Shown: positions 5,272 to 20,302 of the stretch, piece after piece
Numbering within the stretch: position 1 is the stretch's first letter
Layout of the letters: every line of letters begins with the position of its first letter
Program-made: the position numbers and the translations under genes
The notes under the pieces: generated by a model
Seen by the model: the letters and a program-made list of their open reading frames with translations, nothing else
Told to the model about the DNA's origin: nothing
Databases searched by the model: none
NCBI RefSeq assembly: GCF_022539405.1
Contig: NZ_CP054394.1
Location: 2,972,501 to 3,007,500, forward strand
Direction of reading: 5' to 3'
DNA: 35,000 nt
From: Natranaerofaba carboxydovora
GTDB taxonomy: Bacteria; Bacillota; Natranaerobiia; Natranaerobiales; Natranaerofabaceae

Positions 5272-6330
5272 TTGTCAGTAAGAAGGTTATTTCATTTATT
5301 ATTGATTACATGCTTGTTTGTTTCAATAGCTTTTATGGTAGGTTGTGCCACTGAGTACGAAGTAGAGGTACAGGCTGATCCTGAAAAAGCAGGAAAAATT
5401 GAGGGCGAAGGAACTTATGAAGAAGGTGATGAGGTTGCAGTTGAGACGAACCCTAAAGATGGATACGAATTTAAAAAATGGGAAAAAGATGGAGAAGAAT
5501 TAAGTCAAGATCAAGAATATAAATTTGAAGTTAAAGAAAACAAAAAATTAGTTGCTGAATTTGCAGAAACTGTAGACATTCCAGATGAAAATTTAGAAGC
5601 AGCTATTAAGCAAGAATTAGGTGTAAATCAAGTGACTAAAGAAAATATTAAAGAGTTAACATCTTTGGAGGCGAGAAGAGAAGGGATTAGCGATCTGAAT
5701 AACTTGGGAAAGGCAGAGAATCTTAAAAACTTAAACCTTTCGGGCAATAAAATTCAAGATATAACCGCTTTAACTGAACTTACTGGACTAGAGAAGTTAA
5801 ACTTAAACAATAATGAGATAACAGATATTAAAGCACTACATGAGTTAACAAATCTTAAAGAAATCAACCTTGCAGGAAATGAAATCGATGAGATAAGTTT
5901 TTTGGGAGAATTAACCGATCTCGAGGAACTTTCTGTGAAGGATTTGATATTGGTTGATTTTGTCCAATCTCCTGGAGATGACTATATAACTTATAGGGTA
6001 AAAAGCCCATTACCCTTAACTGTCGATGTTCAGGTAGTAAACATAAATGAAGATTTAAGCGTTGAACAGGTATTTGAACCAAATAGTGTTACTGATCGGG
6101 GCGAGCTTTATAGTTTTACTGAAGCGTCTTCCTATGAAGACCCATTTGTTCAGCATGTTCCCAAAACACATCCATTTGACGTTTATAAAGACCATGAATG
6201 GGAAAATACAGAAGTTTTAAAAGTTGTTGTTCGTGAAGAACTTGATGAGGGTATGGAAGGAGAACACAAACCATCTGGAGAGTATAAATTTGATTTTAAA
6301 AACAGAGAGATTATTGAGATTAATGATTAG
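5272..6330 (+). CDS. Leucine-rich-repeat lipoprotein, cargo gene 2 of the mobile element
   Basis: A 352-residue protein starting at TTG behind GAGGTGG. Signal peptide 1-24, lipobox MVGC, lipidated C25. Residues 29-97 resemble the divergent InlB B-repeat (YEVEVQADPE, then GYEFKKWEKDG and a VAEF end). Residues 102-130 (IPDENLEAAIKQELG) match the cap that precedes internalin-like repeats. Residues 145-225 hold about four leucine-rich repeats of the 22-residue type (LKNLNLSGNKIQDITAL). Residues 226-352 are an extra domain I do not recognise. Such proteins usually bind other proteins at the cell surface. The first 130 residues are closely similar to the next gene, so the pair arose by tandem duplication. 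Confidence 0.85.
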   Translation: MSVRRLFHLLLITCLFVSIAFMVGCATEYEVEVQADPEKAGKIEGEGTYEEGDEVAVETNPKDGYEFKKWEKDGEELSQDQEYKFEVKENKKLVAEFAETVDIPDENLEAAIKQELGVNQVTKENIKELTSLEARREGISDLNNLGKAENLKNLNLSGNKIQDITALTELTGLEKLNLNNNEITDIKALHELTNLKEINLAGNEIDEISFLGELTDLEELSVKDLILVDFVQSPGDDYITYRVKSPLPLTVDVQVVNINEDLSVEQVFEPNSVTDRGELYSFTEASSYEDPFVQHVPKTHPFDVYKDHEWENTEVLKVVVREELDEGMEGEHKPSGEYKFDFKNREIIEIND

Positions 6331-6423: not shown

Positions 6424-8103
6424 TTGTCAGTAAGAAAATTGTTTCATTTATTATTGATCACATGCTTATTTGTTTCAGTAGCTTTTATGACAGGTTGTAC
6501 TCCAGAGTACGAAGTAGAAGTACAGGCTGATCCTGAAGAAACAGGAGAAATTAAGGGCGAAGGCACTTATGAGGAAGGTGAAGAGGTTACAGTAGAGGTT
6601 GAATCTAAAGAGGGTTATGAATTTGAAGGTTGGTATAAGGGTGAAGAAAGAGTCAGCGAAGCTGAAGAATATGAATTTGAAATTGAAGAAAACAAAGAAT
6701 TAGTTGCTGGTTTTGCTGAAATTGTAAACATTCCTGATGAAAACTTAGAGGCAGCAATTAAGGAAGAATTAGGTGTAGATCAAGTGACTAAAGAAAATAT
6801 TGAGGATTTAACGGTCTTGGATGCAGTTGGTGAAGATATAACTAACATCGAAGGAATTGAGCATGCAGTCAATTTAGAAGAACTTGATCTTGGTAGGACC
6901 AATATAAGAGATGAAGGAATAGAGCAACTAGCAGAAGCTGATGATTTAGAAGAACTTAATCTTTTTCATACCAATGTAACAGATAAAGGAGTAGAAAATT
7001 TGGCGGAAGCTGACAATTTAGAAGAGCTTGATCTTAGTCATAACGAAGTAACAGATGACGGGGTAAAACAACTAGCAGAAGCTGATAATTTAGAAGAGCT
7101 TGACCTTCGTCATACCGAAGTAACAGATAAAGGAGTAGAACATCTGGCGGAAGCTGATAATTTAGAAGAACTTAATCTTTTTTATACCAATGTAACAGAT
7201 AAAGGAGTAGAACATTTGGCAGAAGCTGACAATTTAGAATATCTTACTCTTCCAGGAGTTCGAAGAGTTGCAGGAGGAAAAAACGAATCCGAAGTAACAA
7301 ATGTGAATCCACTGGCAGAAGCTGAAAATTTAGAAAAACTTGATCTTAGAGGAACCGAAGTAACAAATGAAGGAGTAGAATACCTGGCAAAAGCAGACAT
7401 ATTGGAAGTGCTTGATCTCGAAGATACCCAAATAACAGGTGAAGTAATAAAACATCTATCAGAAGTTGAAAATTTAGAAAAACTTAAGCTTAGCAGAACT
7501 GAAGTAACAGATGACGAGATAAAAGACCTGGCAAAAGACCTGGCAGAAATTGATAATTTGGAACACCTTGATCTTAGAGGAACCGAAGTAACAGACGTAA
7601 ACGCACTAGCAGAAGCTGATAATTTAAAAGAGCTTTATATTGGCATAGCAAAAAGTGAATGGTTACATTTCACCGAAGTAACAGACGATGGGGTAAAACA
7701 ACTACCAGAAAATGATAGTTTAAAAAAGCTTGACATTAGCGGAACCGAAATAACAGATGAAGGAATAGAACAATTAGCAGAAGCAGATAGTTTAGAATAT
7801 CTTAATCTTGAAAGAACCGAAGTAACAGATGAAGGGATAAAACACTTGACAGAATTTGATAATTTGGAACACCTTAATCTTAGAAGTCTTAGAAGAACTG
7901 AAGTAACAGATGAAGGAATAAAACACCTAGCAGAACTTGATAATTTAGAAGAGCTTAGTCTTCATGATACCGAAGTAACAGATGAAGGATTAGAATACCT
8001 GGCAGAAGCAGATAGTTTAGAAGAGCTTGATATTAGAAGAACCGAAGTAGAGGATGAAATAATATCCAAATTAGAAAATGCAGGTATTGATGTCACATAT
8101 TGA
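6424..8103 (+). CDS. Long leucine-rich-repeat lipoprotein, cargo gene 3 of the mobile element
   Basis: A 559-residue protein starting at TTG behind GAGGTGA. Signal peptide 1-24, lipobox MTGC, C25 lipidated. An InlB B-repeat-like domain (29-97) and a cap (102-130) precede a long solenoid at about 145-555. The repeats are 22-24 residues, with the pattern DNLEELDLRHTEVTDKGVEH, of the T-E-V-T-D-x-G type seen in ribonuclease-inhibitor-like and bacterial LRR proteins. Many repeats are near-identical at the DNA level, indicating recent expansion. A few (around residues 280-295 and 410-425) are irregular in length. The protein is strongly acidic. It lacks the C-terminal domain of the upstream paralogue. 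Partner and function are unknown. Confidence 0.87.
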   Translation: MSVRKLFHLLLITCLFVSVAFMTGCTPEYEVEVQADPEETGEIKGEGTYEEGEEVTVEVESKEGYEFEGWYKGEERVSEAEEYEFEIEENKELVAGFAEIVNIPDENLEAAIKEELGVDQVTKENIEDLTVLDAVGEDITNIEGIEHAVNLEELDLGRTNIRDEGIEQLAEADDLEELNLFHTNVTDKGVENLAEADNLEELDLSHNEVTDDGVKQLAEADNLEELDLRHTEVTDKGVEHLAEADNLEELNLFYTNVTDKGVEHLAEADNLEYLTLPGVRRVAGGKNESEVTNVNPLAEAENLEKLDLRGTEVTNEGVEYLAKADILEVLDLEDTQITGEVIKHLSEVENLEKLKLSRTEVTDDEIKDLAKDLAEIDNLEHLDLRGTEVTDVNALAEADNLKELYIGIAKSEWLHFTEVTDDGVKQLPENDSLKKLDISGTEITDEGIEQLAEADSLEYLNLERTEVTDEGIKHLTEFDNLEHLNLRSLRRTEVTDEGIKHLAELDNLEELSLHDTEVTDEGLEYLAEADSLEELDIRRTEVEDEIISKLENAGIDVTY

Positions 8104-10460: not shown

Positions 10461-11087
10461 TTGATACCTTTAGCTAAAAGTGAAGATCCAAAGAATTATA
10501 AACATGCTTTAGAAGTAGCAAAAAAAAATTTAATCCAAAAAGATCCTTTTAAAGTCGAAAAAAATGCAGGTGTTAAATGGGACGGGGAAAAATATATAGT
10601 AAAATCACTTAATGATGAACTGAAAGTTTATCCTAAAGAGGGTAAGGTATATCTGTCATCGCAGGAAAAATTAGTGGTTTTTACCTTACAATTAATATGT
10701 ATTAATTATTTAGCAAGAGCTGGCGGAGAAAATTTGACCTATAATAATATATCATATCGAGAGCTACCGGGTGCTGAAAGTTACTGGCTTGCCTTTAATC
10801 GTGAAGCTATATCGCCACTATTAAAGGCTTATGAAAAGGATAAGACAAGTTTCTCTGATGTATGTTCTATGCTAGGTGGTATAAAACAAGAAGGCAAAGC
10901 TGACTATAGTGCAATTTTTTGGGCGCTGCCAAAAGTACCTGTAATAATAAACCTCTGGGAAGGAGATGACGAAATTCCGGGTAATTGTAATATTTTATTT
11001 GATAAAGTAACCCCGGATTATTTACATACAGAAGACGTTGCTGCTCTTGGTCAGTTGATTGCAGAAATTATTCACAAAGAAGTATGA
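10461..11087 (+). CDS. DUF3786 family protein
   Basis: A 208-residue soluble protein starting at TTG behind GGGAGAGGA. Hallmarks of DUF3786 are visible: a YRELPGAESYWLAFNREAISPL segment (about 103-124), DYSAIFWALPKVPVIINLWEGDDEIPGN (about 148-175), and an ILFD followed by YLHTEDVAALG near the end. The family occurs mainly in anaerobes and has no established reaction. It stands between a long hairpin and a strong promoter, so it appears to be a single-gene unit. No cysteine cluster for a metal centre is seen. Confidence 0.8.
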   Translation: MIPLAKSEDPKNYKHALEVAKKNLIQKDPFKVEKNAGVKWDGEKYIVKSLNDELKVYPKEGKVYLSSQEKLVVFTLQLICINYLARAGGENLTYNNISYRELPGAESYWLAFNREAISPLLKAYEKDKTSFSDVCSMLGGIKQEGKADYSAIFWALPKVPVIINLWEGDDEIPGNCNILFDKVTPDYLHTEDVAALGQLIAEIIHKEV

Positions 11088-11118: not shown

Positions 11119-11147
11119 TTGACATTACCTGTAATAGGCCGTATAAT
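11119..11147 (+). promoter_or_regulatory. Consensus sigma-A promoter
   Basis: TTGACA (11119-11124), 17-bp spacer, TATAAT (11142-11147): a perfect match to consensus. Start would be near 11154. A second TATAAT at 11191-11196 with TTGATT 16 bp upstream may be another promoter. No gene follows for over 600 bp, so the product is an RNA or a very long leader. Confidence 0.85.
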
Positions 11148-11153
11148 TTGGTC

Positions 11154-11290
11154 TAAATCAAGAACTATTTGATTTGTGCTGTTATTATTGTATAATGTCC
11201 TGCTTTTTAAAAAACACTGTATTAGGTGTTGCCCTCAAGCGGTTAAAGCCCGTTTCAATATTTAGGGTCTGTCGCTGGGGGTATTTTTAT
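11154..11290 (+). ncRNA. Candidate structured small RNA upstream of the T-box
   Basis: The RNA would start after the consensus promoter and end in a structured region. CCCTC-A-AGCG (11232-11241) pairs with CGCT-GGGGG (11273-11281), enclosing a short inner stem (GCCC with GGGT) and followed by TATTTTT. An alternative hairpin AAGCGG/CCGTTT (11237-11253) would exclude the long stem, so the region could switch. It also has a 5' hairpin AAATCAA/TTGATTT. Length is about 137 nt, or about 88 nt from the second promoter. I do not recognise it as a known riboswitch, 6S RNA or tmRNA. It could be an independent RNA or the first attenuator of the ilv operon. Confidence 0.55.
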
Positions 11291-11408
11291 AAACAACTTC
11301 AAAATTTTTTTATAATAATATTATCATATTATTTATAAATTTAATACGACAATAAAGATTAAAACAAAGAATTTAAAATTGAAAACGTAATTATATTTGA
11401 AATACGAT

Positions 11409-11712
11409 GAAGAGGAGTAGTAAGAAGGTTAGTTTCGGTTACAGAGAGTCGGCAGTAGGTGAGATACCGGCACCGGAATCTTCTGAAGATCGCCTCTGAG
11501 TAGCTATTCCGAAAGTATTAATTGTCTTTTCATTTTAAAATGAAAAGACAATAGTGTTATTAGGTTTAGCCGGCATTAGCCGTTATCTCCTGAGGGGCCA
11601 GTCTAAAATTATTTGACTGGAATTAGGGTGGTACCGCGGAAAGCTTGGTAGCCTTTCGTCCCTATTTGAGCTAATTTATTTAGCACATAAAAATGGGATG
11701 AAGGGCTTTTGT
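11409..11712 (+). promoter_or_regulatory. T-box leader controlling the ilv-leu operon
   Basis: The T-box sequence AGGGTGGTACCGCGG is at 11625-11639, with CGTCCCTA downstream. Stem I closes with AGAGG (11411-11415) and CCTCT (11493-11497). Its specifier loop has AGTAGTA on one side and GAAGATCG on the other, where ATC at 11489-11491 is the best specifier, fitting uncharged tRNA-Ile. A 32-bp palindrome (11521-11552) forms another stem, and CCAGTC/GACTGG (11599-11619) forms stem III. Binding of uncharged tRNA by the antiterminator would allow transcription of ilvE onward. The Ile assignment is moderate; GAT is the alternative reading. No clear promoter was found just upstream (TTGAAA-18-TACGAT at 11379-11408 is weak and very close), so transcripts may start further up. 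Confidence 0.93.
11651..11712 (+). terminator. T-box terminator hairpin
   Basis: GCCTTTCGTCCC (11651-11662) pairs over 12 bp (two G-U) with GGGATGAAGGGC (11695-11706), followed by TTTTGTAATTTT. The 5' arm includes the sequence also needed by the antiterminator, so the two forms exclude each other, as in other T-box leaders. Confidence 0.88.
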
Positions 11713-11773
11713 AATTTTAAATGGGAGTACAAAATTAGGTTTTTTATTTTAATTTTGTGGAGGGTGGTTATAT

Positions 11774-12670
11774 ATGTCTAAGCTGGTGTATTTAAATGGT
11801 GAGTTTGTAGCTGAAGAAGAAGCAAAAGTTAGCGTCTGGGATCATGGATACCTTTACGGAGATGGTGTTTTTGAAGGAATAAGAGCATATAACGGACGTA
11901 TATTTAAATTAAAAGAACATGTTAAAAGGTTATTTGAGTCGGCGAAATCTATTATGCTAGAAATTAATATGACTGAAGAAGAAATGTGTAAAGCAATAGC
12001 TCAAACTGTCAAGAAAAACGAATTGAAAGATGCATATATTAGAGTTGTGGTATCAAGAGGGGTAGGGGATTTAGGATTAGACCCTAATAACTGTACCAAA
12101 TCTCAAGTTGTAATAATTGCTAGCAAAATAACTTTATTCTCTGACGATTTATATGAAAACGGTCTAGAAGTTGTAACAGTAGCGACCAGGAGAAATGCCC
12201 ATGAAGCATTAAACCCTAAAATTAAATCTCTTAATTACTTAAATAATATCCTCGTCAAAATAGAAGCTAATTTAGCTGGTGTGAAAGAAGCTTTAATGAT
12301 AAATAATGAAGGCTATGTAGCGGAAGGTTCAGGTGATAATGTATTTATAATAAAAGACGGCGTGATATACACACCCCCACCATATGCTGGAATTTTGAAT
12401 GGTATAACCAGACAAACGGTTATGGAGCTTGCAGAAGAAAAGGGTTATCCGGTGAAAGAGGAACTTTTTACCAGACATGATGTTTATGTGTCTGACGAGT
12501 GCTTTCTGACGGGTACTGCTGCAGAGATAATACCTGTTATTAAGGTTGATGGAAGAAGTATTGGAAATGGTAATCCTGGTACTATTACAAAAGACTTGAT
12601 GGAACTATTTAGAGAACATACTCTTAATAATGGGGTTTCAATATATGACGACAAAGATTTGGCTGTATAG
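11774..12670 (+). CDS. ilvE: Branched-chain amino acid aminotransferase
   Basis: A 298-residue class IV PLP-dependent aminotransferase. It moves the amino group between glutamate and the 2-oxo acids of valine, leucine and isoleucine, the last step of their synthesis. The PLP lysine is K151 in NPKIKSLNYLNN. The AEGSGDNVFIIKDG and GILNGITRQTVMELA segments are typical of the family, as is YLYGDGVFEGIRAY near the start. Length is normal. ATG follows GGAGGGTGG. It is the first gene after the T-box and 13 bp ahead of ilvB. Class IV also contains D-amino-acid aminotransferases, but operon context settles the role. Confidence 0.96.
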   Translation: MSKLVYLNGEFVAEEEAKVSVWDHGYLYGDGVFEGIRAYNGRIFKLKEHVKRLFESAKSIMLEINMTEEEMCKAIAQTVKKNELKDAYIRVVVSRGVGDLGLDPNNCTKSQVVIIASKITLFSDDLYENGLEVVTVATRRNAHEALNPKIKSLNYLNNILVKIEANLAGVKEALMINNEGYVAEGSGDNVFIIKDGVIYTPPPYAGILNGITRQTVMELAEEKGYPVKEELFTRHDVYVSDECFLTGTAAEIIPVIKVDGRSIGNGNPGTITKDLMELFREHTLNNGVSIYDDKDLAV

Positions 12671-12683
12671 GGAGTGAGCTAAA

Positions 12684-14381
12684 GTGAATGGTGCACAGTT
12701 ATTAATGAAATGTTTGGAAAATGAAAAAGTAGAAACTATCTTTGGTTACCCTGGTGGTGCCGTGTTAGAACTTTATGATAAATTAATGGATGCAAACGTA
12801 GAGCACGTCTTAACAAGACATGAACAGGCAGCTGTTCATGCAGCTGATGGGTATTCGAGAGTTAGTGACAAACCAGGTGTATGTTTTGCTACTTCAGGTC
12901 CTGGAGCTACGAATCTAATTTCTGGTCTCGCTACTGCATATATGGACTCTATACCCTTGATTGTTATAACTGGACAGGTAGCAAAAGGCGCACTTGGTAG
13001 TGATGCTTTTCAGGAAGCTGATATAAAAGGGATTACAATACCAATTGTTAAACACAGTTATCTTTTAACTGATGTTAAGGATATACCACAGGTTATAAGA
13101 GAAGCTTTTCATATAGCGACTACAGGTCGACCCGGACCTGTTTTGATAGATGTTCCAAAAGATGTCTTAAATGAAGCATGCCCTGAAAACACCAAGCCAA
13201 AAACAGGAAAACCTGACTTACTTGGATATAAACCTACTTATGAAGGACACCCGGTTCAAATTAAAAAAGCAGTAAAAATGATTGAAAAAGCCCAGCGGCC
13301 AGTTATCTATGCCGGAGGAGGGGTAAAGCTTTCTAGTGCCGGTTCTGAAGTTTTAGAGCTAGCTGAAAAACAGGATATTCCCGTTGTTAATACTTTGATG
13401 GGTACAGGCGAATTCCCCTGGGATCATAGATTGTCTCTTGGAATGTCAGGTATGCATGGACATGTTGGTGCTAATAAGACGATGTTAAATTCGGATTTAA
13501 TTATTGCAATAGGAGTTAGATTTAGCGATAGAGGTACTGGTAATAAAGAAACTTTTATTAAAGATAAAAAAGTTATTCATATTGATATTGATCCTGCCGA
13601 AATAGGAAAAATAATTCCTGTTGATGTTCCAATAGTAGGGGATTCAAAAGGTATACTCGAGAAAATAAACAAAAAAATAAATTCAACTACACGGGAAAAA
13701 TGGCTTGAACAAGTAGAAAAATGGTATGACGAAGACAAAAAGCTATATCAAGAGCGTGTTACTAATCAAGCTAATAGAATTTCAGCTGGAACAGTACTTA
13801 GTAAAATTTCTAACACCTTGAAAAATAGAAACGAAGATATAATTGTATCAACGGACGTTGGTCAGCATCAAATGTGGGTTTCGCTTTATTATGAATATAT
13901 TACTCCGGGCAAATTCTTGAGTTCAGGTGGACTTGGAACGATGGGATTTGGTCTTCCGGCTTCTATGGGGGCAAGTTTTGCCAAAAATGATCATATGGTG
14001 ATAAGTTTTGTGGGAGATGGAGGCTTTCAAATGAACTCCCAGGAGCTTGCAACTATCTCAAGGTATAACTTACCTGTCAAAATAATAGTTATGAATAATA
14101 ACTGTCTTGGAATGGTTAGGCAGTGGCAGGAGATGTTTTTTAACGAAAAGTATTCTTCTACTATACTTGAAGGGAACCCTGATTTTGTAAAACTAGCTGA
14201 AGCTTATGGGCTAAATGCTGTAAGACTAGATGATGCAAAAACAATGGATCAAACTATTGAAAATGTCTTAGAAGATAAAAACCCTTGCCTTTTAGAAGTA
14301 AGGCTTTGTACTATAGAGAATGTGTTTCCTTTTGTACCTCCAGGAAAGCCTTTAAATGACATTATCAAGGAGGGGAAGTAA
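12684..14381 (+). CDS. ilvB: Acetolactate synthase, large (catalytic) subunit
   Basis: A 565-residue thiamine-diphosphate enzyme. It condenses pyruvate with pyruvate or 2-oxobutyrate, the first committed step to valine, leucine and isoleucine. The catalytic glutamate is E47 in RHEQAA; GDGGFQMNSQEL followed by MNNN is the cofactor/Mg site; LGTMGFGLPASMGA precedes it. The FAD-domain region in the middle is of normal length. Start GTG lies 13 bp after ilvE, behind GGAGTGAG. The regulatory subunit starts right after its stop codon, so they are made together. Confidence 0.97.
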   Translation: MNGAQLLMKCLENEKVETIFGYPGGAVLELYDKLMDANVEHVLTRHEQAAVHAADGYSRVSDKPGVCFATSGPGATNLISGLATAYMDSIPLIVITGQVAKGALGSDAFQEADIKGITIPIVKHSYLLTDVKDIPQVIREAFHIATTGRPGPVLIDVPKDVLNEACPENTKPKTGKPDLLGYKPTYEGHPVQIKKAVKMIEKAQRPVIYAGGGVKLSSAGSEVLELAEKQDIPVVNTLMGTGEFPWDHRLSLGMSGMHGHVGANKTMLNSDLIIAIGVRFSDRGTGNKETFIKDKKVIHIDIDPAEIGKIIPVDVPIVGDSKGILEKINKKINSTTREKWLEQVEKWYDEDKKLYQERVTNQANRISAGTVLSKISNTLKNRNEDIIVSTDVGQHQMWVSLYYEYITPGKFLSSGGLGTMGFGLPASMGASFAKNDHMVISFVGDGGFQMNSQELATISRYNLPVKIIVMNNNCLGMVRQWQEMFFNEKYSSTILEGNPDFVKLAEAYGLNAVRLDDAKTMDQTIENVLEDKNPCLLEVRLCTIENVFPFVPPGKPLNDIIKEGK

Positions 14382-14909
14382 ATGTCTAAGACACTAAGTG
14401 TACTGGTACACGATAGGCCAGGTGTTTTGAGCCGTGTATCGGGATTATTTACAAGAAGAGGATTCAATATTGAAAGCCTGGCTGTTGGCAAAAGTGAATA
14501 TGAAGGCCTTAGTAGGATAACTATTGTAGTGGCTAAAGACGAAAGAGTAGAGCAAATAGTGAAGCAGCTAAATAAATTGATAGATGTTGTTAAGGTCAGA
14601 GAGATGACTGAGATGGATACCTTAGAGAGAGAACTTGTTTTATTTAAGGTTAATGCTACTGGTGATGCTAGAAGAGAGGTCCAGGAGATTTGTGAAAACT
14701 TCAGGGCAAAGATTGTAGATGTTTCCCTGGATAGTTTAATAGTTGAAGTTACAGGGGATCATGAAAAGATATTAGCTTTGGAAAACTTATTGGGACATTT
14801 TGGTATTCAAGAAGTGGTAAGGACAGGAACTGTAGCCATGAGAAGAGGAATGCAAAAGAAAAAATATTTTAATAAAGGAGAGATGAAAAATGGCGCAAAT
14901 GTATTATGA
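14382..14909 (+). CDS. ilvN: Acetolactate synthase, small (regulatory) subunit
   Basis: A 175-residue regulatory subunit. Residues 4-75 form an ACT domain ([32 protein letters not shown]), which binds valine for feedback inhibition and also activates the large subunit. The C-terminal domain (about 82-160) is the usual second half. ATG directly follows the ilvB stop, with AAGGAGGGG inside the ilvB end as ribosome site. The last 20 bases overlap ilvC in another frame. It is slightly longer than usual at the C-terminus because of that overlap. Confidence 0.96.
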
Positions 14910-15891
14910 AAATGATGCAGATCTTAATGTTTTAAAATCTAAAACAATTGCTGTACTTGGCTTTGGTAGCCAGGGGCATGCTCAGGCACAAAACCTTAAA
15001 GACTCAGGCCTAAATGTGATAATTGGTCTAAGAGAAAATAGTAAAAGTAAACAAAAAGCAGAGGCAGCAGGACTTGAAGTATTACCAGTGGAGGAAGCTG
15101 TTAAAAAAGCTCAAGTAATTCAAATACTCTTGCCAGACGAAGCTCAACCAGAAATTTATGAACAAAAAGTAAAGCCAAATTTGGATGATGGTGATGCACT
15201 TGGTTTTTCACATGGGTTTAATATTCATTATAGCCAGGTAGTGCCTCCAAAAAATGTAGATGTCTTTATGATTGCTCCTAAAGGTCCCGGTCACCTGGTA
15301 AGGGAAACTTATGAAAGAGGAGAAGGTGTTCCTGGGCTTTTGGCAATATATCAGGATTATACAGGTAAGAGTAAAGAACTTGCCCTTTCCTATGCAAAAG
15401 GTGTTGGATGTACCAGAGGTGGACTTATCGAAACTAGCTTTGAAGAAGAAACAGAGACAGACCTATTTGGAGAGCAGGCTGTGCTTTGTGGAGGAGCAAG
15501 TGAACTAGTAAAGGCCGGCTATGAAACTTTGGTAGAAGCAGGTTATCAGGAGGAAGTAGCATATTTTGAATGTTTGCATGAGTTAAAGTTAATTGTTGAT
15601 CTGATGTATGAAGGTGGCCTTTCTTATATGAGGCATTCGATAAGTGATACAGCTCAATATGGTGATATGACAAGGGGCAAAAAGATAGTTGATGAGGAAT
15701 CCAAAAAAGCAATGAGAAAAATATTAGAGGAAGTACAGGATGGTACTTTTGCCAAAGAATGGATCTTAGAAAATAAAGCAGGACGTCCAATGTTTAATAA
15801 CTTAAATTACAAAGAACAAAATCATTCAATTGAACAGGTAGGTAAAGAACTTCGTAAAATGATGAGTTGGATCTCCGATAAAAAGGAGTGA
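14890..15891 (+). CDS. ilvC: Ketol-acid reductoisomerase
   Basis: A 333-residue class I enzyme. It isomerises and reduces acetolactate or acetohydroxybutyrate with NAD(P)H and Mg2+. The Rossmann motif is [13 protein letters not shown], and the following [14 protein letters not shown] loop has the arginine and serines usual in NADPH-preferring forms. The knotted C-terminal domain shows the metal-binding [12 protein letters not shown] and the [17 protein letters not shown] helix. ATG overlaps ilvN by 20 bp and is preceded by AAAGGAGAG. Confidence 0.97.
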
Positions 15892-15913
15892 AAGTAAAAA
15901 GGGAGTGAATAAA

Positions 15914-17494
15914 ATGAGAAAAATTCAGGTCTTTGATACTACCCTTAGAGACGGGGAGCAGACCCCGGGAGTTAGTTTGTGTACAGAAGAAAAATTAGAA
16001 CTAGCAAAACAGCTATCCCGTTTGGGAGTTGATATTATAGAAGCAGGATTCCCCTTTTCTTCAAAAGGGGAATTTGATGCGTGTAAAGCCATTGCAGATG
16101 AAGTAAAAGGTGTAACCATAGCAGCACTTTCTAGAGCTAACCAAAAAGAAATTGATCTTTGTAAAGATGTATTAAAAGGTGCAGAAAGATCGAGAATTCA
16201 CATATTTGTAGCAACATCTGAGGTACACTTGAAGTATAAACTGCAAAAGAGTAAAGAAGAAGTTTTGAAAATGGCTGTTGATTCTATCAAACATGCTAGA
16301 GGTCATTTTGATGAAATTCAGTTTTCACCTGAAGATGGTGGAAGCGGCAGAACCGACCCCGAATTTTTGCATCAGATAGTAGAAGCAGCAATTGATGCTG
16401 GAGCAGATGTGGTTAACATTCCGGATACAGTTGGGTATCAAACTACGCAGACTTTTTATGACCTAATTAAAGGTATTAAAGAAAATGTTCCAAACGCAGA
16501 TAAGGCTGTTATAAGTGTTCACTGTCATGATGATCTTGGAATGGCGGTGGCAAATACCCTGGCGGGAATAAAAGCTGGTGCAGATCAGATAGAGACAACT
16601 ATAAATGGCCTTGGTGAAAGAGCCGGCAATGCAGCTATGGAAGAAGTTGTTATGGCACTTAAAACAAGAAAAGATTATTATGATGCAGATACCAGGGTGG
16701 ATACCAGGCAGATTTATCGTACCAGTAGACTTGTAAGTAAACTTACTGGTATTAAGATTCAGGCTCATAAATCTGTTGTTGGCGATAATGCCTTTTCTCA
16801 TGAATCAGGGATACATCAGGATGGTATTTTAAAAGAAAAAAGCACTTATGAAATCATGACTCCTGACTCAATTGGCCTTAGCAGTAATACTCTTGCTTTA
16901 GGTAAGCATTCAGGACGACATGCATTTAAGAATAAATTAGATGAACTTGGTTTTAATAATTTAACCGAAGAGCAGTTCCAGAAAGCCTTTGATAAATTCA
17001 AAGACCTGGCTATTAGAAAGAAGAATTTAACTGATAGAGATATTGAGGCTATTGTGGAAAATAGGATATTTGTATATCCACAGGTTTATCAGTGGCTTGA
17101 TTTCCAGGTTCAATCAGGGAACAAGTCGGATGCTATGGCTATGGTAGGTCTAAAAAAAGATAATTCAAAAGTTATAAGAGAAGCAGCCTGTGGTAAAGGT
17201 CCGGTTGATGCTATATATCACACTATAAATAGATTAGTTGGAGAAACATATAAGCTACTTGACTACAATATAAAGTCCGTTACAGGAGGAACAGATGCTT
17301 TAGGTGAGGTGGTAGTTCGTCTTCAAAAAGATGAGATAACTGCTACCGGTCGTGGTATTTCTCCTGATATTTTAGAAGCCAGCGGCAAGGCATATATAGA
17401 CGCGATAAACAAAGTCATAAGTAAAAGGAGTGAGTTAGAAAATGGGTATGACGATGGCGGAGAAGATTTTGGCAAAACATGCCGGAAAGGATAA
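15914..17494 (+). CDS. leuA: 2-isopropylmalate synthase
   Basis: About 526 residues. It joins acetyl-CoA and 2-oxoisovalerate, the first step of the leucine branch. The catalytic barrel begins VFDTTLRDGEQTPGVSL; VHCHDDLGMAVANTLAG carries the metal-binding His pair; GLGERAGNAAMEEVVMAL follows. The C-terminal LeuA regulatory domain with SVTGGTDALGEVVVRL is present, so leucine feedback is likely. I start at ATG 15914 rather than GTG 15905, because the GTG lies inside the GGGAGTG ribosome site. The 3' end overlaps leuC by 53 bp, an unusually long overlap that leaves a short C-terminal tail of low conservation. Confidence 0.95.
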   Translation: MRKIQVFDTTLRDGEQTPGVSLCTEEKLELAKQLSRLGVDIIEAGFPFSSKGEFDACKAIADEVKGVTIAALSRANQKEIDLCKDVLKGAERSRIHIFVATSEVHLKYKLQKSKEEVLKMAVDSIKHARGHFDEIQFSPEDGGSGRTDPEFLHQIVEAAIDAGADVVNIPDTVGYQTTQTFYDLIKGIKENVPNADKAVISVHCHDDLGMAVANTLAGIKAGADQIETTINGLGERAGNAAMEEVVMALKTRKDYYDADTRVDTRQIYRTSRLVSKLTGIKIQAHKSVVGDNAFSHESGIHQDGILKEKSTYEIMTPDSIGLSSNTLALGKHSGRHAFKNKLDELGFNNLTEEQFQKAFDKFKDLAIRKKNLTDRDIEAIVENRIFVYPQVYQWLDFQVQSGNKSDAMAMVGLKKDNSKVIREAACGKGPVDAIYHTINRLVGETYKLLDYNIKSVTGGTDALGEVVVRLQKDEITATGRGISPDILEASGKAYIDAINKVISKRSELENGYDDGGEDFGKTCRKG

Positions 17495-18725
17495 AGTTAA
17501 GGCCGGAGATTTTGTCTTTGCAGAAGTTGATCTATTGTTGGCTAACGATATAACTGGTGTACTTGCCATACAGGAATTTGAAAAACTAGGGGCAGAAAAT
17601 GTATTTGATAAGGACAAAATAACTTTTATCCCGGATCATTTCACCCCAAATAAAGATATACTTTCTGCCAAACAGGCTAAAACTTTAAGGGAATTTTCTA
17701 GAAAACATGATCTGACCCATTATTATGAAGTAGGAAGATGTGGGGTAGAGCATGTCTTTTTACCGGAGCAGGGCATGGTAAAACCTGGAGACCTTGTTGT
17801 AGGTGGGGATTCTCATACCTGTACTTACGGGGGTCTTGGAGTTTTTGCAACAGGTATGGGAAGTACAGACCTTGCCTGTGCTATGGCAACAGGAAGAGTC
17901 TGGCTTAAAGTTCCCGAAACTTTAAGATTTAATATGGAAGGCACTCCTTCAAAGTGGGCTGGAGGAAAAGATCTTATATTGTATATTCTTGGTCAAATAG
18001 GAGTGGATGGAGCAAGGTACAAAGTCATGGAAATAGGGGGAAGTGCTATAGAGTCTCTATCTGTTGAAGGACGTCTTACTATGGCTAATATGGCTATTGA
18101 AGGTGGTGGCAAAACAGCCCTATTTAAAGCAGATGACAAAGCCATGGAATACTTGGATGGTCGGGTAGATAATATAAATGAAATAGAACCTGTTTTCAGT
18201 GACAAAGGCTGCGAATATGAAAAGACATATAACTATAATGTTGAGGGGTTAGAACCTCTGGTTGCACTTCCACACCTTCCTTCAAATGTTAAACCAGTAG
18301 ATGAAGTAGAAGAGACTGTACTTGACCAGGTAGTGATAGGGTCTTGTACCAATGGCCGTATCGAAGACTTAAGAGAAGCTCATCAAATTATAAAAGGCGA
18401 AAAGGCCGACCCAAATTTAAGATTTATAGTTATCCCTGGAAGCCAGGAGGTTTATAAGCAAGCACTAGAAGAAGGTTTGATTGCTGACTTCATAGATGCT
18501 GGAGCAGCTTTTAGTACTCCTACTTGTGGCCCCTGTCTTGGTGGACATATGGGTGTTTTAGCTCCAGGGGAAAAAGCCCTTGTAACTTTTAATAGAAATT
18601 TCATCGGTAGAATGGGTGACCCGGAAAGTCTAGTATATCTATCTAACCCCCAGGTGGCTGCTGCATCAGCGATTACCGGGAAAATCTCCCATCCAAGAGA
18701 GGTGAAACCACATGTCAAAGGATAG
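17442..18725 (+). CDS. leuC: 3-isopropylmalate dehydratase, large subunit (short archaeal/clostridial type)
   Basis: A 427-residue aconitase-family subunit carrying a [4Fe-4S] cluster. With LeuD it isomerises 2- to 3-isopropylmalate. Cluster cysteines are seen in VIGSCTNGRIEDL and TPTCGPCLGG; GGDSHTCTYGGLGVFATGMG is also typical. At about 420 residues it belongs to the shorter LeuC group shared with archaea and related to homoaconitase, and is smaller than the E. coli form (about 466). ATG sits behind AAAAGGAGTGAG within the end of leuA. Its end overlaps leuD by 14 bp. Confidence 0.96.
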   Translation: MGMTMAEKILAKHAGKDKVKAGDFVFAEVDLLLANDITGVLAIQEFEKLGAENVFDKDKITFIPDHFTPNKDILSAKQAKTLREFSRKHDLTHYYEVGRCGVEHVFLPEQGMVKPGDLVVGGDSHTCTYGGLGVFATGMGSTDLACAMATGRVWLKVPETLRFNMEGTPSKWAGGKDLILYILGQIGVDGARYKVMEIGGSAIESLSVEGRLTMANMAIEGGGKTALFKADDKAMEYLDGRVDNINEIEPVFSDKGCEYEKTYNYNVEGLEPLVALPHLPSNVKPVDEVEETVLDQVVIGSCTNGRIEDLREAHQIIKGEKADPNLRFIVIPGSQEVYKQALEEGLIADFIDAGAAFSTPTCGPCLGGHMGVLAPGEKALVTFNRNFIGRMGDPESLVYLSNPQVAAASAITGKISHPREVKPHVKG

Positions 18726-19218
18726 GACAAACAATAGAGCATGGACTTTTGGTAACGATATAGATACGGATGTTATAATTGCGGCCAGATATTTAAGTGT
18801 AGAAAGAGAAGAACTAAAAAAATATGTATTTTGCGACTACAGACCTGAATTTCCTAGAGATGTAAAAGAAGGAGACGTAATTGTAGCCGGAAGGAACTTT
18901 GGCTGTGGCAGTTCTAGAGAACATGCACCTTTAGCAATAAAAGAAGCTGGTGTTAAATATGTTCTTGCAAAGTCCTTTGCTAGGATTTTTTATAGAAATG
19001 CAGTAAACTTAGGAATTTATGCAGTAGAATGCTCTGACAAGCTTGATGATGTAGAAGAGGGAGATGAACTAGAAGTTAATATTAGAGAAGGTAAAGTATA
19101 TAATAAAACCAAGGATTTTGAAATTGAAGCAACTAGTTATCCTCCTTTTATGCTTGAAATTGTTGAAGCAGGAGGGCTTGTACCATATACAAGAGAAAGG
19201 ATTTTGAAAAATGAATAA
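18712..19218 (+). CDS. leuD: 3-isopropylmalate dehydratase, small subunit
   Basis: A 168-residue swivel-domain partner of LeuC. The [14 protein letters not shown] segment near the start and [15 protein letters not shown] are the substrate-binding signatures. The length matches the short type that pairs with the 420-residue LeuC. ATG overlaps leuC by 14 bp, behind GAGAGGTG. Its end overlaps leuB by 8 bp, so the three genes are tightly coupled. Confidence 0.96.
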
Positions 19219-20302
19219 AACATATAAAATCTGTATATTACCAGGAGATGGAATAGGTACTGATATTATAGAAGAAGGAAAAAAAGTGCTTCAAAGAGTA
19301 GCTGAAAAATCAGGTATAAAGCTAGATCTTGAAGAAGGATTAATAGGTGGTATAGCTTATGATAAAGAAGGCACCCCTTTTCCTCAAGATACCTGGGAAA
19401 AAGTAAAAGATGCTGATGCAGTTCTACTTGGTGCAGTTGGTGGGCCTAAATGGGACTGTCTCCCAAGGGACAAAAAGCCTGAAAAAGCACTTCTCGAATT
19501 AAGGAAAGGTTTGAATGTTTATTTGAACTTAAGACCTGTGAAAATATTTCCTTTTCTTGCCGGTATGTCTCCCATCAAAAATATAGCTAATGGTGAGATA
19601 ACACCTGATTTAGTAATAGCTAGAGAACTTTCTAGCGGTATTTATTACGGAGAACCAAAAGATCAGACAGGAAGCGGTGATAATAGAGAAGCTGTGGATA
19701 CTATGAGATATACCTATGAGGAGATTGAAAGAATAACAAGAAAAGCTTTTGAACTAGCAAAGAATAGAAGTGGTAAAGTAACATCAGTAGATAAGGCAAA
19801 TGTTCTTGCATCATCAGGGCTATGGCGAGATGTAGTCAATGAAATATCTAATGATTATCCAGATGTTGAACTTGATCATATCTTGGTAGATAATTGTGCT
19901 ATGCAGGTAGTCCTTAACCCTCAAGACTTTGATGTGATGTTATGTCCTAATATGTTTGGAGATATAATTAGTGATCTTGCTTCAGTTTTACCTGGCTCTA
20001 TAGGGCTTATGCCTTCTGCAAGTCTTGGTGAAGGTAGAAAAGGCCTCTACGAGCCTGTTCATGGATCTGCTCCGGACATAGCAGGTCAGGGTAAAGCAAA
20101 CCCTTTAGCAACGATTTTGAGTGTTGCTATGCTTTTGGAGATGACCCTTGGTCTAGGGGATGAAGCAAGAACAGTCGAAAAGGCAGTTTATGACGTTCTA
20201 AATGAAGGTTATAGGACTCATGATCTTTATTATGATGAAAAGAAGGAAACTCTTGTTAGCACACAAGAGATGGGAGATTTAATAACAGATAGAATTGTAT
20301 AA
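19211..20302 (+). CDS. leuB: 3-isopropylmalate dehydrogenase
   Basis: A 363-residue NAD-dependent oxidative decarboxylase that forms 2-oxoisocaproate, later aminated by IlvE. Seen: LPGDGIGTDIIEEG at the start, LLGAVGGPKWD, ELSSGIYYGEP, VDNCAMQVVLNPQDFDVMLCPNMFGDI (catalytic Lys/Asp region before it), and GSAPDIAGQGKANPLATILS for NAD binding. Length is normal. ATG overlaps leuD by 8 bp. It is the last gene of the operon, followed by a strong terminator. Confidence 0.97.
   Translation: MNKTYKICILPGDGIGTDIIEEGKKVLQRVAEKSGIKLDLEEGLIGGIAYDKEGTPFPQDTWEKVKDADAVLLGAVGGPKWDCLPRDKKPEKALLELRKGLNVYLNLRPVKIFPFLAGMSPIKNIANGEITPDLVIARELSSGIYYGEPKDQTGSGDNREAVDTMRYTYEEIERITRKAFELAKNRSGKVTSVDKANVLASSGLWRDVVNEISNDYPDVELDHILVDNCAMQVVLNPQDFDVMLCPNMFGDIISDLASVLPGSIGLMPSASLGEGRKGLYEPVHGSAPDIAGQGKANPLATILSVAMLLEMTLGLGDEARTVEKAVYDVLNEGYRTHDLYYDEKKETLVSTQEMGDLITDRIV

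Follow-up and report, generated by a model that had tools for sequence, protein, structure and literature searches.

Anatomy of the ilv-leu leader region

The window analysed here is a 35-kb stretch of the Natranaerofaba carboxydovora genome (3.26 Mb, one contig). Its forward strand carries an ilvE-ilvB-ilvN-ilvC-leuA-leuC-leuD-leuB operon (11774-20302), delimited by open reading frames; ilvE was assigned by Pfam, and ilvB, ilvN, ilvC, leuA, leuC, leuD and leuB were read by eye from their translations. Upstream of ilvE lies a T-box leader (11398-11666), which belongs to Rfam family RF00230 by its bit score (131.8 bits, with a cut-off of 93), its AUC (Ile) specifier and its terminator, T2 (11650-11713; -26.7 kcal/mol, tail UUUUGUAAUUUU). 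Applied to same-order T-boxes of valS, ileS, pheS and thrS, the rule by which we read the specifier gave the expected codon each time. Between Stem I and the antiterminator of the ilv leader, an AT-rich hairpin of 14 bp, ATTGTCTTTTCATTTTAAAATGAAAAGACAAT (11521-11552), is inserted. Further upstream on the same strand is a gene for a DUF3786 protein of 208 amino acids (10461-11087; Pfam PF12654, E 8e-47). Elsewhere in the window, 5272-6330 and 6424-8103 encode two neighbouring putative lipoproteins, paralogues whose N-termini are almost identical and which both contain leucine-rich repeats.

Between the DUF3786 gene and the T-box leader is a promoter sequence, P1 (11119-11147, forward strand), that reads TTGACA-17-TATAAT and has a predicted start at about 11154-11155. 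It matches the consensus at 12/12 positions, and a scan of both strands found no other 12/12 site in the 35 kb, which bears out the initial annotation in calling it the best promoter of the window. By a rough composition estimate, which is not a program output, about 0.1 such sites are expected per window by chance. P1 scores 18.5 on a matrix derived from 33 T-box promoters, the maximum of that matrix. The same annotation held that P1 precedes no gene. This is correct for its immediate surroundings, but the T-box leader and then the ilv-leu operon follow downstream on the same strand. A possible second, weaker promoter, P2 (TTGATT-16-TATAAT, 10/12; 11169-11196, forward strand), is suggested by its sequence.

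RNA initiated at P1 would begin with a small AU-rich 5' hairpin (AAAUCAAG/UUUGAUUU, 11155-11175, from folding). About 75-130 nt 3' of the P1 start is T1 (11230-11290, forward strand), a terminator-like hairpin with a U-rich tail. Its stem (11231-11282) is lengthened by the pair U11230-A11283 and runs directly into UUUUUAU (TTTTTAT in the DNA), in agreement with the earlier remark that the longer hairpin ends in a T-run. This tail is comparable to that of T2, 400 nt downstream. The energy of T1 is -20.6 kcal/mol, a value that none of 200 dinucleotide shuffles of 11148-11397 equalled (mean -7.0, best -15.0), and when the full RNA is folded 6/7 pairs of the outer stem have pairing probabilities of 0.96-1. 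Over its full 142 nt the RNA shows no unusual stability (z = -1.6); that of its 91-nt core is modestly raised (z = -2.5). The succession of a promoter and, about 140 nt on, a terminator-like hairpin is real as sequence anatomy.

A candidate antiterminator (11200-11242, forward strand) precedes T1. In it, 11200-11205 pairs with 11237-11242, enclosing a 6-bp hairpin (11213-11230) and excluding the terminator. In folding calculations this pairing has a probability of about 0.7-0.9 while the 3' end of the RNA lies at 11265-11275 (0.75-0.92 with the end at 11275), and falls to 0 once the 3' arm of T1 has been transcribed. Upstream sequence sequesters the T1 arm at least as well in 26-33% of shuffles, so the alternative fold does not by itself speak for a switch. 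Thus, of the two mutually exclusive hairpins proposed initially, the terminator hairpin stands outside anything its shuffles produce and the alternative fold does not rise above chance.

T1 could merely end the DUF3786 transcript. It is the first terminator noticed past that gene; our scan lists no terminator-like site between the DUF3786 stop at 11087 and T1. A plain terminator of this kind would also dampen P1, while part of the transcription would constitutively continue into the T-box leader; the chance-level alternative fold fits such an unregulated element. For a plain gene terminator its placement would be odd, since a perfect promoter lies between it and the stop codon 143 nt upstream, and we regard this explanation as rather unlikely.

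Short frames rich in branched-chain codons also lie between P1 and T1 (GTG 11176, VLLLLYNVLLF...; TTG 11169, MICAVIIV), which raises the idea of a leader-peptide attenuator in which a stalled ribosome controls T1. T-rich sequence readily gives Leu, Ile and Val codons, however, and neither start codon is preceded by a Shine-Dalgarno sequence. A ribosome stalled on the Leu/Ile/Val codons would leave T1 free to form, and one that translated the longer frame as far as its stop codon (11264) would break T1 up. The response would therefore be opposite to starvation-induced expression, and attenuation of this type is very improbable here.

Promoter position relative to the T-box

Where T-box promoters normally lie bears on whether P1 serves the operon. 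We compared 33 T-boxes from the host genome and two relatives of the same order; the promoter matrix was built from these same 33. A whole-genome search gave these two relatives and no genome from the host's own family. A promoter scoring above 11 is present within 100 nt of 29/33, and in the host genome each of the six other T-boxes is preceded by a TTGACA element at a distance of 47-83 nt. The spacer between T1 and the ilv T-box (11291-11397, about 107 nt, forward strand) is very AT-rich, and its best promoter score is 3.4, below the mean of its own shuffles (4.9). The one T-box that scores lower is that of pheS in the same order (L055), with a nearby promoter score of 1.9. Given this equally poor case, a weak local promoter at the ilv T-box is still conceivable.

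A second comparison concerns distance. In 20 T-box leaders with ilvE as the first gene, namely those across the phylum with a recognisable promoter, the -35 element lies 233-359 nt upstream of the antiterminator motif, compared with 508 nt at this locus. The lack of a usual promoter beside the ilv T-box, together with this distance, points to P1 as the most likely promoter of the ilv-leu operon. By the same sequence comparison, the leader has most likely gained about 200 nt containing a second terminator. The proposal that the element is placed in series with the T-box thus gains moderate, indirect support: a nearby promoter is absent at the ilv T-box, and P1 alone has such quality. Fuchsiella (L022), the closest named relative by IlvE, has neither a T-box nor a comparable leader upstream of ilvE, and in DTU086 (L023) the T-box seems to have its own adjacent promoter.

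Alternatively, P1 or P2 could produce an independent small RNA, a discrete 85- to 135-nt transcript ending at T1 that is either trans-acting or a by-product, while the ilv T-box uses a weak or unusual promoter of its own in the spacer. A promoter of stable-RNA quality followed by a strong terminator within 140 nt is what such a gene would look like, and at a locus in the same order (L053) a separate promoter-driven unit lies immediately upstream of a T-box equipped with another promoter. Against this, the spacer promoter is no better than shuffles, compared with 29/33 T-boxes of the order that have a good one, and the element has no Rfam sRNA match, no second copy in this genome and no relative among the genomes searched. 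We consider an independent small RNA a real but clearly less probable explanation than an operon driven from P1.

The L053 locus (genome G002, reverse strand) deserves description in its own right. Two T-box matches precede an argG-like gene there, and a 12/12 promoter is located about 250 nt upstream of the first. The short unit behind this promoter has a strong Shine-Dalgarno sequence (AAGGAGGTGATACT) and an open reading frame (MLVRRFQIMGRGSFISH) containing three AGA/AGG Arg codons. After the frame come a GC-rich hairpin that has no U-tract and then the T-box, which reads Arg (specifier CGC) and has a promoter to itself. Possibly the unit is an arginine leader peptide arranged in series with that T-box.

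Relatives and known RNA families

The T1 element matched no Rfam family, either at the gathering threshold or in a relaxed search (E<=10). A match to ar15 is due to chance (16.9 bits, where the cut-off is 40). The covariance search of 11200-11292 that the initial annotation had suggested recovered only the sequence itself among 101 relatives, 398 genomes of the phylum and three of the class, which neither strengthens nor refutes the new regulatory RNA or riboswitch proposed there; the first two sets overlap and together comprise roughly 400 genomes. A covariance model made from a single sequence finds relatives only if they are still moderately similar, and three genomes represent the class. 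For these reasons the missing homologs do not refute a riboswitch. Weak covariance hits of 20-26 bits (L044, L045, L075 and L076) look like chance when the sequences are read and lie in no comparable context, and an apparent second copy in the same genome, at 2858389, is a chance match within a protein-coding frame.

Two further candidates were rejected. A second 6S RNA is not indicated, as RF00013 has no match at the element and the 6S RNA of this genome is elsewhere. A CodY-regulated leader is likewise not indicated: the best match to the CodY box AATTTTCWGAAAATT at this locus is 11/15, and several sites elsewhere in the window surpass it. CodY itself is encoded full-length at 941951, and a second, partial CodY-like match is found at G000:C1:1965195-1965587.

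We also considered that a divergent riboswitch for ppGpp (ykkC type) precedes the T-box in series. A published study (PMC9481103) describes leaders that combine a ppGpp riboswitch with a T-box(Leu) in series, where either may come first and each has an expression platform of its own; these tandem leaders (Sherlock et al., 2018) are read there as AND gates, with 15 cases in which the riboswitch comes first. The genomic position and operon type at our locus are the same as in these leaders (PMC9481103). However, none of the ykkC clan matched the 421 bases searched at the locus, even at E<=10, and RF00442 has no match in the whole genome. RF00442 models guanidine-I, and a divergent ykkC subtype might escape detection by it. 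Of all the explanations weighed here, we give a ppGpp riboswitch the least credence.

Two probable terminators in series before ilvE

The reading we favour, to which we give about an even chance, is that P1 drives the ilv-leu operon and that polymerase passes T1 and then T2, the terminator of the Ile T-box, before it reaches ilvE. Transcription from P1 would reach T1 (11230-11290) as its first termination site, upstream of the Ile-specific T-box, and transcripts that pass it would continue into the T-box leader. There T2, which belongs to the T-box, would form the second barrier before ilvE. From the order of the elements, the operon probably has to pass two consecutive stop points. RNA stopped at T1 would accumulate as a 90- to 135-nt species.

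Passage through T1 may be regulated rather than merely leaky. The region 11200-11242 could fold as an antiterminator that is stabilised by some ligand or protein. If a signal of amino acid shortage governs T1, the two elements would form an AND gate with uncharged tRNA-Ile as the second input. The fuller proposal, that T1 is under the control of a small undescribed ligand-sensing or protein-binding RNA (11200-11290) which lacks a ppGpp aptamer and makes an AND gate together with the Ile T-box, is unlikely.

Like the tandem ppGpp/T-box(Leu) leaders, this locus has an element with its own terminator ahead of the T-box of a branched-chain amino acid operon. Unlike them, it has no detectable ykkC/ppGpp aptamer, and its T-box reads Ile rather than Leu. 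Compared with single ilv T-box leaders (RF00230), the T-box and operon are ordinary, but an extra terminator lies within the 508-nt gap between the -35 element and the antiterminator, where 233-359 nt is usual. There is also a resemblance, by description, to the orphan motifs ilvD (WRC-18-2) and ilvB (WRC-14-1), which are found in Veillonella and Leptospira only (PMC8632094): these too are rare structured leaders that precede branched-chain amino acid genes and show scarcely any covariation or none. The concept of serial leaders is thus already published, and the T1 element itself is an orphan.

If transcripts from P1 do pass T1 before the T-box, the operon would have a second RNA checkpoint outside every described family. 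The element would then offer, in a sparsely sampled lineage, a compact and testable case of a possible new regulator that governs how branched-chain amino acids are made. Other serial leaders might be discovered in genome sequences by the same promoter-distance test, which looks for T-boxes with an exceptionally remote upstream promoter.
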